Shown in pieces: positions 25,956-29,178 of a stretch of DNA of 64,000 nt; the first letter of the stretch is position 1, and each line of letters starts with the position of its first letter. Source of the stretch: Bacteroidota bacterium (GTDB lineage: Bacteria > Bacteroidota > Ignavibacteria > Kapaibacteriales > UBA2268); the NCBI GenBank assembly GCA_004322215.1, contig SCSM01000011.1, positions 62,001-126,000 on the forward strand. Direction: 5' to 3'. The notes beneath the pieces were generated by a model. That model made no database searches, had not been told where the DNA came from, and worked only from the letters and a program-made list of their open reading frames with translations. The translations under genes and the position numbers were made by a program.

Positions 25956-26909
25956 TTATTTTGTATTTTTAATACTCTGATTTATCCAATCAAGAATTGT
26001 TGAAATTCTAACCCAATAACTGCTATGACAATAATATCCTGTTTTTCTAAATTGTTCAATATTTATTCCAGCTGATGGAGATACTCCTGCCAATAACCAT
26101 TGACCTTTTTTTTCAATAAATAAACCCCCACCAGAATCTCCTGCAATGGTTGAAAATTCCAAATTTAATGGTTTTGAATCACCGGTTTTATTACAATTTG
26201 AATCAGTGGGACTATCAAAATCATACACAAGAGTCCCGGGAAGTCCATCACGAAAATTCCAAATTGTATCTATCATATTTTCTCCTGCCAGTTTTTTTCC
26301 GTAATTCAATTCTTTGTCATAAGCTCCTCCGTAATAGCCCCATCCCACTCCAACTGCTTTTCTCCCAACTTCATTAGCGTTTTTATTGAGTTTTGGTATT
26401 TTAATCTTTGTCACTGGTTCTTTCAATTTAATTATTGCAACATCATAATTATTCCATTGCCCTTTGACATCAAGAGAAAAATATTTCGAATGAAGGATAA
26501 TTGTATCAGCTTCCAATAATCTTCCATCTAAATCAAATCTGAATTTACTGCTTGGTAATTGATTCTCGCCCAAAACAATATATGAATCTATTTTTGTCCC
26601 ATCATCCATAATATATGTAGTATCCTTTTTAATGAGATTTGTGAAGCAATGAGCAGCAGATAATACATATTGTTCCGAAATCAATTCACATGAACACCAG
26701 GGCTTCAATGTATCACCTTTTGCATGCCTCGATTCCCATTTATCAGTTGTATCACTTTCATTTATAATCTTGAACATTCTGCCAACACAATTGAATTGCT
26801 CTTCTTGTGCAAGTTTTAAATAATCGGAGGAATCTTTGTCATGCCTGTAAATAATAGCAAAGTTAACAGTGTAATTAATAACTAATAGAATAATTATAAA
26901 AAATTTCAT
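25956..26909 (-). CDS. Secreted trypsin-like (S1) serine protease
   Basis: A 317-residue protein with an N-terminal signal peptide (FFIIILLVINYTVNFA). The chymotrypsin-fold catalytic triad is complete: His87 in LSAAHC, Asp156 in NNYDVAII, Ser259 in IAGDSGGGLF. Cysteines around Cys88 suggest disulfides, as in eukaryote-like S1 proteases. No T9SS sorting domain or extra module follows, so it probably remains periplasmic or is released by another route. It ends about 25 bp before the GH3 gene on the same strand. Confidence 0.9.
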   Translation of the reverse strand: MKFFIIILLVINYTVNFAIIYRHDKDSSDYLKLAQEEQFNCVGRMFKIINESDTTDKWESRHAKGDTLKPWCSCELISEQYVLSAAHCFTNLIKKDTTYIMDDGTKIDSYIVLGENQLPSSKFRFDLDGRLLEADTIILHSKYFSLDVKGQWNNYDVAIIKLKEPVTKIKIPKLNKNANEVGRKAVGVGWGYYGGAYDKELNYGKKLAGENMIDTIWNFRDGLPGTLVYDFDSPTDSNCNKTGDSKPLNLEFSTIAGDSGGGLFIEKKGQWLLAGVSPSAGINIEQFRKTGYYCHSSYWVRISTILDWINQSIKNTK

Positions 26910-27070: not shown

Positions 27071-28459
27071 TCATTTCTCAACAATAACTCGTTGTACTGC
27101 TTGTTCTCCACAGTCAGAAATAACTGATATCAAATACAATCCAGGTTGTACATTATGCAGGTAAAAACTCTTTGTGTAAGTTCCAGCAACAAGCATTGTA
27201 CTATTCATCAATTCAAGAATCTTAACACCGGATAAATCATTCATTATAATTCTAATTTGTCTTTCAGATTTTAAATTAAATTCCACATTTATTTTTTCTG
27301 AGGTTGGGTTTGGATATAAATTAAGTTTTTCAATGGCACCATTACAGGCTCTCCAAACATCAAAAAAAGGTTCTTCTCCGGCTATTGTTTTTGGTAAAAT
27401 TTGACAATTATTTGTTTCATCCTTGATAGCATCAATTTCATTGTTAATTTTATTTCGATACTTTTCCGGTAATTTTTCAATAAATTCGGTTGTCGGTTCG
27501 AACCATAAAATAAAAGCGTAATCATCGTTTCTATTGAAATTGTCTTTATTTAAATTTTTACCCATATAAACTTCTATTGAAATCAGTTTGTTGACTTTAA
27601 GATAATCGTCTAAATTTTTATTGATTTGTTTAAAATATTTTTTATTATAAACATCACTTATAGAATCAATACTATTCTCATTTTTACTAAAAATACTATC
27701 ATCTTTAAACCATGTAATTCTTCTGTTACCTGCATTATCCGTAATCATTTTTATTGACGTGGGTAAACAATTTAAGCTTTTGTTTTCAGTATTATTTAGT
27801 GAATATTCTTTACCATCTATAGTTAATCCTCCCTCGACATGCAAAGTGCATAATTTCAAGTTATTCCCCTTAAATTTTTCATAATATGAGATTCCGCCTC
27901 CATGCCAGGCATTTGATTCTATCTTAATTCCAATGGCAGCCAACTCATCATTACTCAGTTCAATCATTTGTATTCCTTTTACATTTACTTTATAAAATAA
28001 TTGTAAATCGGAATCTTTTTGTAATGTTTGGATTTTTCTTTTTTTCGAAGTATCTGTTTGTGAATATAATTTTATTGATGTTTGGTTATTATTATAAGAT
28101 TGTGTTGATTTTTCCTTATCTATAAAATTAGTACCTTTTTTGTCAACGTATAAATCTTTACTTTTTCCCAGATTATTATTTACACTTACATTTTGATATT
28201 TACTTTTATTATTGAATATCAATTGTTGGTTAAATAAACTTATTATTAAAAAACTTAAAGTGATTATTACAATTCCTGTTATTATTAAAATATTTAAAGG
28301 ATATAATTTATCCCAAAAGCTATGTTTTGATTTGCTTAATTTAATGTTTGCTTTTGAAGCTTTTTCAACAAAATTTTTAAAGTCTTCCTGTGAAAAATAA
28401 AGCTGTTCTTTTCTAGCATTATTAAAAAAATCATCAATTGATTTATTCTGACTTTTCAT
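27071..28459 (-). CDS. Single-pass membrane protein with anti-sigma-like topology and a T9SS sorting domain
   Basis: A 462-residue protein encoded 22 bp downstream of an ECF sigma factor gene. Residues 1-~48 are hydrophilic and helical (DDFFNNARKEQLYFSQEDF, FVEKASKANIKLSK). One membrane helix lies at ~52-75 (LNILIITGIVIITLSFLIISLF), so the N-terminus should be cytoplasmic, as in transmembrane anti-sigma factors. A long extracytoplasmic region of unknown fold follows. The last ~80 residues are a clear type-A T9SS sorting domain (LYPNPTSEKINVEF, then PGLYLISVISDCGEQ). A T9SS tail on an inner-membrane anchor is topologically odd. Anti-sigma function is inferred from gene order and topology, not from a recognised zinc-finger motif. 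Confidence 0.72.
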   Translation of the reverse strand: MKSQNKSIDDFFNNARKEQLYFSQEDFKNFVEKASKANIKLSKSKHSFWDKLYPLNILIITGIVIITLSFLIISLFNQQLIFNNKSKYQNVSVNNNLGKSKDLYVDKKGTNFIDKEKSTQSYNNNQTSIKLYSQTDTSKKRKIQTLQKDSDLQLFYKVNVKGIQMIELSNDELAAIGIKIESNAWHGGGISYYEKFKGNNLKLCTLHVEGGLTIDGKEYSLNNTENKSLNCLPTSIKMITDNAGNRRITWFKDDSIFSKNENSIDSISDVYNKKYFKQINKNLDDYLKVNKLISIEVYMGKNLNKDNFNRNDDYAFILWFEPTTEFIEKLPEKYRNKINNEIDAIKDETNNCQILPKTIAGEEPFFDVWRACNGAIEKLNLYPNPTSEKINVEFNLKSERQIRIIMNDLSGVKILELMNSTMLVAGTYTKSFYLHNVQPGLYLISVISDCGEQAVQRVIVEK

Positions 28460-28481
28460 AGGATATATATATAATTAATAA

Positions 28482-29087
28482 TTAATAATTACTTATTTCC
28501 ATTTTAATATCTAAATATTTTAAATCGTTAAAAGTTTCGATTTTTTTTGTTTTGCCATTTTTATTATCTAATTCTCCTTTTTCTTTAACAATATTTGCTC
28601 CCATCAAATGTGCAAGTTTATTTCTACCACGTTGTAAACGTGATTTTATACTTGATAAAGTTCCTCCTTGTATTTGTCTTATCTCCTGAAGTGAAAAGCC
28701 GGATAACTCAAATAATAATAATGCTTCTTTTTGTTTATAAGGTAATTTCTCTAAAACTTGATAAAGGAACGAAACATCAGTCGCACATTCGGGCGATGGA
28801 TCATTACATTCAATTGATTCTGCATAATCCTGGTCAAATAAGCCAAAAATTTTAGTTCTAATTTTTCGCCTTCTATATAGTCTGCTTGCTGTTGTAAAAA
28901 GGAAGCTGAGAAAAGCTTTTTTCTTTTCAATTTTTTCAAAATTTTCATAAGCTATCATTATAGTATCCTGTAAAAGATCTTTAGCATCTTCTCTGGAACG
29001 TGTGAGTGCCATAACAAACCTTGTTAAGCTTTCTCTAACGGTTTCTAATATCTTTGAAAATTCTTCCTGCTTATTTTTTTGAATCAT
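28482..29087 (-). CDS. ECF-family RNA polymerase sigma factor
   Basis: A 201-residue protein with region 2 (RFVMALTRSREDAKDLLQDTIMIAYENFEK, split here by description; residues ~20-75) and region 4 (LEKLPYKQKEALLLFELSGFSLQEIRQI, then SIKSRLQRGRNKL; ~110-160). These are the core promoter-binding and -35-binding parts of group 4 sigma factors. The C-terminal ~35 residues are a Lys/Asn-rich tail. It heads a two-gene operon with the membrane protein at 27071-28459, its likely regulator. Target genes cannot be read from this window. Confidence 0.92.
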   Translation of the reverse strand: MIQKNKQEEFSKILETVRESLTRFVMALTRSREDAKDLLQDTIMIAYENFEKIEKKKAFLSFLFTTASRLYRRRKIRTKIFGLFDQDYAESIECNDPSPECATDVSFLYQVLEKLPYKQKEALLLFELSGFSLQEIRQIQGGTLSSIKSRLQRGRNKLAHLMGANIVKEKGELDNKNGKTKKIETFNDLKYLDIKMEISNY

Positions 29088-29178
29088 AAATTTTTTTATA
29101 TTTCTGTCTTTCTAAGTAAGAGACATAAATTATAAAAAAGTCGCATTCAATTTTAAATAAATTTTTTTATTATTTTAT

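Follow-up and report, generated by a model that had tools for sequence, protein, structure and literature searches.

Why should a protein laid out like an anti-sigma factor end in a secretion signal? The question arises from two adjacent genes on the minus strand of a 64,000-nucleotide stretch of Bacteroidota bacterium DNA (contig SCSM01000011.1; the whole stretch is called the window here). One encodes an extracytoplasmic function (ECF) sigma factor and the next its partner, a predicted membrane protein with a type-A sorting domain of the type IX secretion system (T9SS) at its C-terminus. Our analysis shows that the partner belongs to a conserved family of sigma-linked, predicted membrane proteins, which very likely act as anti-sigma factors and are probably tied to the outer membrane through their T9SS tails. 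The pair is organized as follows.

28482..29087, minus strand: ECF sigma factor gene, 201 amino acids (Sigma70_r2, Sigma70_r4_2, TIGR02937)
27071..28459, minus strand: gene of the putative membrane anti-sigma factor with T9SS tail, 462 amino acids, 22 bp downstream of the sigma gene
28304..28459, minus strand: predicted cytoplasmic N-terminus, residues 1-52, putative sigma-binding region (predicted helices at 8-17 and 24-36)
28220..28303, minus strand: predicted membrane helix of signal-anchor type, residues about 53-80 (hydrophobic segment and AlphaFold2)
28004..28210, minus strand: low-confidence, probably disordered polar tether, residues 84-152 (predicted local distance difference test, pLDDT, <50 at 86-151)
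27341..28003, minus strand: folded periplasmic region by prediction, residues 153-373, with the motif GI..LxLs..EL..LGI and the juxta-tail motif LIPV...ILWYxPTxEFI..LPERYR
27071..27340, minus strand: type-A T9SS sorting domain, residues 374-462 plus stop (PF18962, hidden Markov model (HMM) of cargo tails, fold matches)

Architecture of the window pair

The sigma frame matches Sigma70_r4_2 (6e-11), Sigma70_r2 (1.7e-8) and, above the cut-off, TIGR02937, with regions 2 and 4 both present. Three sigma/partner pairs exist in the genome (window, C22 and C12), and the closest paralogues of the window sigma factor in its own genome are the sigma factors of the two other pairs (49% and 42% identity; next 34%). 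In the partner, residues 57-75 form the single hydrophobic segment. An AlphaFold2 model of the partner, computed with a 59-row family alignment, gave short helices at residues 8-17 and 24-36, a membrane helix at 53-83, low confidence at 86-151 and a partly confident folded region (low at about 251-290, 301-310 and 351-360), followed by a tail block with pLDDT of 88-98. The partner is thus predicted to lack a cleavable N-terminal Sec signal peptide. A preliminary description of this DNA, made from the letters alone, had proposed an anti-sigma gene order and topology with 48 N-terminal residues before a single membrane helix. The genes lie as it stated, with one membrane segment and two predicted N-terminal helices, and the length was about right, as 52 residues precede the predicted membrane helix.

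The same description had called the C-terminus a type-A T9SS tail. PF18962 matches residues 381-460 with 35.7 bits (cut-off 27), and structural comparison of the model by VIA-align, which concerns mainly residues 373-462, gave, among the matches listed, the C-terminal domain (CTD) of PorU (Z 10.4), the mirolase CTD (9.8), the T9SS-bound NucA CTD (8.8) and PorZ (8.7). A sequence profile run against solved structures picked up T9SS tails with weak scores (best E 0.0055), together with chance hits. With these fold matches and the HMM matches given below, the assignment stands and an unrelated fold is rejected; we regard it as highly probable that it is a real T9SS domain.

Linkage and co-inheritance in the family

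A family profile was made from the three partners of the window genome with their tails removed and no sigma sequence included, which avoids circularity. Searched over 60 genomes, the window's own included, it gave matches in 28, and the first member set comprised 59 proteins from 27 genomes, among them the window genome's three. All of the members that keep the N-terminal helix/membrane region (57 of 59) have an ECF sigma gene just upstream, in one case fused. Directly behind the sigma gene lie 53 of the 59, with gaps of -65 to 259 bp when computed with the first start codon of each frame; the two genes overlap in 33 of these 53 pairs, by exactly 4 bp in 15. The set of 53 pairs leaves out L103 (fusion), L082 and L106 (no sigma gene), L098 (no tail; 4-bp overlap with its sigma gene), L074 (a split gene of two open reading frames (ORFs) whose first overlaps the sigma gene) and L101 (sigma gene and partner separated by one ORF). 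In L082 and L106 an N-terminal signal peptide replaces the helix/membrane region, and no sigma gene was present in the fetched stretch.

A second set held 20 members, 19 from a tail-free core search over the phylum plus L066 (genome G014, the 28th genome). Here all 17 members with the N-terminal region have both sigma gene and tail, and two signal-peptide members have no sigma gene within 1.5 kb upstream; L209, a fragment with a sigma gene present and neither N-terminal region nor tail in its ORF, was set aside from the 17. Over both sets, a sigma gene accompanies all 74 members that keep the N-terminal region and none of the 4 with a signal peptide, and the probability for this 74 vs 4 split is about 7e-7 (worked out by hand; neither figure is corrected for relatedness). 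Chance neighbourhood of partner and sigma gene is rejected on the 74/74 linkage. As three pairs occur in one genome and nearly all relatives show both the linkage and the tail, the pairing goes beyond chance.

The tail is equally persistent. A cargo-tail HMM built from 20 ordinary cargo tails of the window genome only matched 58 of 59 members of the first set, the exception being L098, and PF18962 and TIGR04183 were found in 56 and 55 of the 59. Across the 53 members the tail measures 79-85 residues vs 201-822 residues between membrane helix and tail; its terminal motif is kept, and no other parts of the family proteins vary as little as juxta-tail domain and tail. An L..(F/Y)F..A(R/K)-like pattern is kept in the N-terminal region, and the sequence C-terminal to the membrane helix is polar in composition. 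Orthologous pairs therefore retain both features on which the preliminary description had hinged, sigma linkage and T9SS tail.

We then compared distances among sigma factors with distances among parts of their partners in the 53 pairs. The correlation was 0.61 for the tail, 0.59 for the core and 0.43 for the N-terminus. Re-pairing that swaps paralogues inside each genome, and so keeps species history, gave means of 0.25 (max 0.44), 0.23 and 0.19 (max 0.35), respectively, and the observed values of all three correlations were reached in 0 of 1000 re-pairings. Because the correlations exceed all re-pairings, the tail appears to be inherited with its own sigma factor and not freely swapped among cargo.

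Topology was likewise consistent over the 53 members. A hydrophobic peak falls within residues 40-120 (median 56), lysine and arginine together amount to 2.94 per 15 residues before the peak vs 1.30 after it (more before in 38, equal in 9, fewer in 6), and a signal-peptidase-like site occurs in 3. By a different measure, 19 of 20 ordinary cargo proteins from the same genome have a hydrophobic 12-mer in the first 30 residues of the longest frame, and one has none. The family is predicted to have a cytoplasmic N-terminus and one membrane helix in N-in orientation. As partner and sigma factor are co-inherited and the N-terminal region is strictly associated with sigma linkage, the partner is very likely an anti-sigma factor, whose N-terminal region would bind the sigma factor.

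As a control, we considered the 11 other ECF loci of the window genome found with the window sigma factor as query. The tail was scored for the nearest same-strand ORF within 700 bp downstream, available at 10 of 11 loci (none at L158; second ORFs at L149 and L151 were left unscored), and the cargo-tail HMM matched none of these 10 nearest partners. Six of the other partners (L150, L152-L156) are proteins of 402-474 amino acids that have a single, centrally placed membrane segment and F as their last residue. Neither Pfam nor NCBIfam named a beta-barrel in these six, and the alternation score lay within the shuffled range in all six; two of them match an NCBIfam anti-sigma model near the N-terminus, far below its cut-off.

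Upstream of the window sigma gene lies a promoter-like element:

29117..29141, minus strand: putative autoregulatory ECF promoter, ACTTTTT-N9-TGTCTCTTA (pattern from the window site and the C22 paralogue)

The pattern ACTTTTT-N9-TGNCNCTTA stands upstream of the window sigma gene and of its C22 paralogue, and near-identical stretches precede two orthologues in genome G002. In its strict form (spacer 9-12) it had no other site in the 4.2-Mb genome, the reversed-pattern control gave 0, and shuffling predicts 0.01 sites in the window; only the absence elsewhere is informative, because the pattern was derived from those two operons. Among the 53 upstream regions, 30 contain a -35-like AAC(C/T)(C/T)TT-type stretch vs a mean of 7.7 (max 20) in 200 mononucleotide shuffles, and the exact form is absent from 23, the window's included (GACTTTTTT). 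As the promoter-like pattern has no other site in the genome, autoregulation of the sigma operon is likely, judging from this motif.

Variants of the pair occur. In L103 (2268-4790) one frame holds ECF sigma factor, N-terminal region, membrane helix, a parvulin-type peptidyl-prolyl isomerase (PPIase) and T9SS tail, which may reflect either a genuine fusion or the loss of a stop codon. A TonB C-terminal domain lies between membrane helix and tail in L089 (1894-3831) and L100 (2479-4485). One subtype is followed, with overlap or within 11 bp, by a YCF48-like propeller gene (L010:3450-4439, L083:5478-6410, L080:797-1726, L075:620-1549; by Pfam for L010 and L075 only, by eye for the similar ORFs after L080 and L083). 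Other third genes encode a VIT protein (L097, L108, L107; with VWA in L097 and L108) or a DUF1573 protein (L058, L110). These differing third genes and domains suggest different inputs or outputs per copy. The four signal-peptide relatives (L082, L106, L198, L200), with no sigma gene nearby and the tail kept, are apparently plain T9SS cargo sharing the module. In the window, the pair is followed by a protease gene:

25956..26909, minus strand: trypsin-like protease gene, 317 amino acids (PF00089), 161 bp after the anti-sigma gene

It is possibly the third member of the window subtype; a 317-residue trypsin homologue follows the orthologue in genome G002 in the corresponding position (L056:4728-5681). 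The protease encoded 3' of the pair may contribute to the pathway.

Of 395 genomes sampled from the phylum, 19 contain matches, of which 17 belong to the window's order (its own genome included) and two to another family of the same class, whose members L194-L197 have sigma gene and tail too. The named relatives are metagenome-assembled Ignavibacteriae/Ignavibacteria and Candidatus Kapaibacterium (placed by NCBI in Bacteroidota). Co-occurrence of the family with the T9SS says little, because SprA is found in 59 and T9SS tails in 60 of the 60 genomes.

Possible roles of the tail

Beyond the predicted architecture, the conservation, linkage and co-evolution, and the identity of the tail in sequence and predicted fold, we infer three steps: sigma binding, T9SS engagement, and release upon a change in docking. 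The N-terminal cytoplasmic helices would hold the sigma factor at the inner membrane, and the flexible tether and periplasmic domain would place the sorting domain within reach of the T9SS, be it a PorV-type barrel, the PorM motor arm or the translocon. The protein would thus be docked at or through the outer membrane with its N-terminus still in the cytoplasm. The tether of about 65-70 disordered residues could measure about 20 nm if extended and, with the folded parts, could reach the outer membrane. A change in docking (blockage, pulling, or extracytoplasmic cleavage followed by membrane proteolysis) would free the sigma factor, which would then activate at least its own operon. On this model, which we consider the probable one, the partner parallels the Dma anti-sigma factors described below but docks via the T9SS: a membrane anti-sigma factor tied to the outer membrane through its T9SS tail, with a docking change freeing the ECF sigma factor.

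Engagement of the T9SS machinery by the tail is itself likely. In Porphyromonas gingivalis the CTDs of PorA, RgpB, Mfa5, PPAD and Kgp bound PorV and that of Hbp35 did not (PMC7712824), and CTD motifs D and E influence the binding of PorM and PorV (PMC10202324). PorV and PorU are present in the window genome. Four of its PorV-family genes score over the curated cut-off (C20:134334-135401, C33:118634-119686, C29:82121-83023 and C38:35577-36446), and the first of these adjoins a PorU-type sortase gene (C20:135595-138900), about 8-13 kb past the window's end. Perhaps different PorV-type barrels serve different tails. That the family senses T9SS activity is plausible.

Several observations weigh against the docked anti-sigma model. 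Type-A cargo, as described, bears a signal peptide and passes first into the periplasm (PMC10202324). L098 (L098:1190-2536) has a transglycosylase (SLT) domain in place of core and tail, with N-terminus and sigma linkage kept; 4 of 53 sigma frames are short (127-144 residues), and the L057 sigma frame (L057:3928-4311 and upstream; genome G002) is broken by a stop codon with its partner open, which could be a decayed pair or an assembly error. Family presence correlates with a first-look number of T9SS tails (rho 0.76) and with genome size (0.78), with a partial correlation of 0.28 given size. The preliminary description had further envisaged T9SS genes under a shared promoter motif, and no such regulon was found: in the window genome, no T9SS gene lies under the strict or relaxed promoter pattern, the strict pattern has no site beyond its two source operons, and the similar stretch at the third pair (C12) fails it. 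As the relaxed pattern gave 5 sites vs 3 in the reversed-pattern control, no targets can be named beyond the two sigma operons.

Structure prediction of sigma docking gave a low-confidence result. For a fused model we used alignment A10 (a single natural fusion with three read-through chains plus 40 sigma rows); alignments A8 and A9 were dropped as the aligner had put isolated N-termini on the sigma factor. AlphaFold2 applied to 298 residues of the natural fusion (sigma factor plus N-terminus) reached a predicted template modelling score of 0.45, with low confidence outside the sigma factor. The sigma part was sound and helices wrapping it were not seen, confidence being low there; the structure comparison covered mainly residues 1-165. 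Plain Foldseek gave no T9SS entry among its best 50 matches, which were uninformative on the fold of residues 153-373 as well, and generic Ig-like domains scored as high as T9SS tails among the VIA-align matches listed (best Vpr, Z 10.9). As other Ig-like domains score alike and Foldseek gave no such entry, assignment of the tail draws mainly on its sequence.

The last two results would also fit a tail that is a generic Ig-like binding domain whose contact with the T9SS has been lost. A CTD need not be an export signal, because the CTDs of PorU and PorZ stay uncleaved and serve for docking (PMC10202324). Yet an HMM trained on cargo tails alone recognizes nearly every member, and length and terminal motif have hardly changed, which makes loss of T9SS contact improbable. 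Ordinary T9SS cargo with a long signal-peptide n-region and a sigma gene beside it by chance would likewise combine a T9SS tail with one N-terminal hydrophobic segment. We rejected this reading, to which we give almost no credence: the linkage is complete, the partners co-evolve with their sigma factors, a natural fusion exists, and the hydrophobic peak lies well inside the protein, with few peptidase-like sites, whereas, by the other measure, 19 of 20 cargo proteins have a hydrophobic stretch within their first 30 residues.

A sensor of surface signals is the alternative we take most seriously, although we hold it tentatively. Here the tail would only deliver or anchor the extracytoplasmic domain, and the cue would be external (ligand, polymer or envelope damage), not the state of the T9SS. 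The highly variable region between helix and tail fits such a role, as do the other domains of a few members (TonB_C in two, PPIase in one), the subtype-specific third genes (trypsin, YCF48-like, VIT/VWA, DUF1573) and the presence of more than one pair in thirteen genomes, which suggests several cues; in P. gingivalis, the CTD protein PorA is proposed to relay a surface signal to the ECF sigma factor SigP (PMC7712824). The constancy of juxta-tail domain and tail, however, points to a tail that is more than an address label. The tail could also serve a switch with the logic of FlgM, an anti-sigma factor that is itself exported (PMC3595227): a working T9SS would export or process the extracytoplasmic part, after a cut or via the translocon, so destroying the anti-sigma factor and freeing the sigma factor. 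The tail is canonical and intact, and the module is probably exportable, because the signal-peptide relatives that share it look like plain T9SS cargo. FlgM is soluble, whereas the window partner is by prediction anchored in the membrane, and we think such a switch unlikely.

Comparison with known systems

Export of FlgM takes place by the flagellar type III route and its partner is FliA (sigma-28), in contrast to the predicted membrane helix and the ECF partner found here. With type-A T9SS cargo (PF18962/TIGR04183), which crosses the outer membrane and has its tail removed by PorU, the window partner has the tail in common; cargo has a signal peptide, whereas the partner has a predicted cytoplasmic N-terminus and signal anchor. 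In class II anti-sigma factors (CnrY type) two helices wrap the sigma factor, and the window partner likewise has a short N-terminal region with two predicted helices; searching solved structures with the family profile gave no anti-sigma chain at E up to 1.

The literature that we found on a link between T9SS and transcription concerns the PorA-PorXY-SigP route of P. gingivalis (PMC7712824) and an ECF/anti-sigma pair of Flavobacterium psychrophilum among the SM6 promoters, which also transcribe T9SS genes (PMC9723704). PorA is, like the window partner, a type-A CTD protein acting upstream of an ECF sigma factor, but it has a signal peptide, lies at the cell surface, is placed upstream of PorXY and is no anti-sigma factor, whereas the window partner has no predicted signal peptide. 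The F. psychrophilum pair joins an ECF sigma factor and an anti-sigma factor to the T9SS through its regulon, and the available part of that report describes no T9SS tail on the anti-sigma factor.

Closest are the Dma anti-sigma factors of Bacteroidota (for example Dma1/Dma2 of Bacteroides thetaiotaomicron), which consist of a sigma-binding region, a membrane helix, a disordered tether and a beta-barrel and whose sigma factors are reported as ECF21 (PMC13088901). Common to both families are a putative N-terminal sigma-binding region, one transmembrane helix, a tether disordered by prediction, an adjoining ECF sigma gene and a C-terminal domain that belongs to the outer membrane. They differ in that domain, a beta-barrel in Dma and an Ig-like T9SS sorting domain in the window family; a role in vesiculation is described for Dma. 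The six other ECF partners of the window genome may hint at Dma-like two-membrane anti-sigma factors outside Bacteroides, as suggestive candidates only.

Anti-sigma factors, CTD regulators (PorA) and two-membrane anti-sigma factors (Dma) are each already known, and what appears new, as far as we searched, is an anti-sigma factor with a T9SS tail: none turned up in the literature searched (open-licence papers only). If the docked anti-sigma model is true, the family would be the first anti-sigma factors with a T9SS address, as far as that literature shows, and a candidate for a direct connection of T9SS or outer-membrane state with transcription. The cell may in this way gauge its T9SS export route, or the outer membrane beyond, when switching genes on. 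Seen next to Dma, the family suggests a rule for Bacteroidota in which anti-sigma factors are fused to domains from an outer-membrane biogenesis pathway, a barrel in one case and a T9SS tail in the other.

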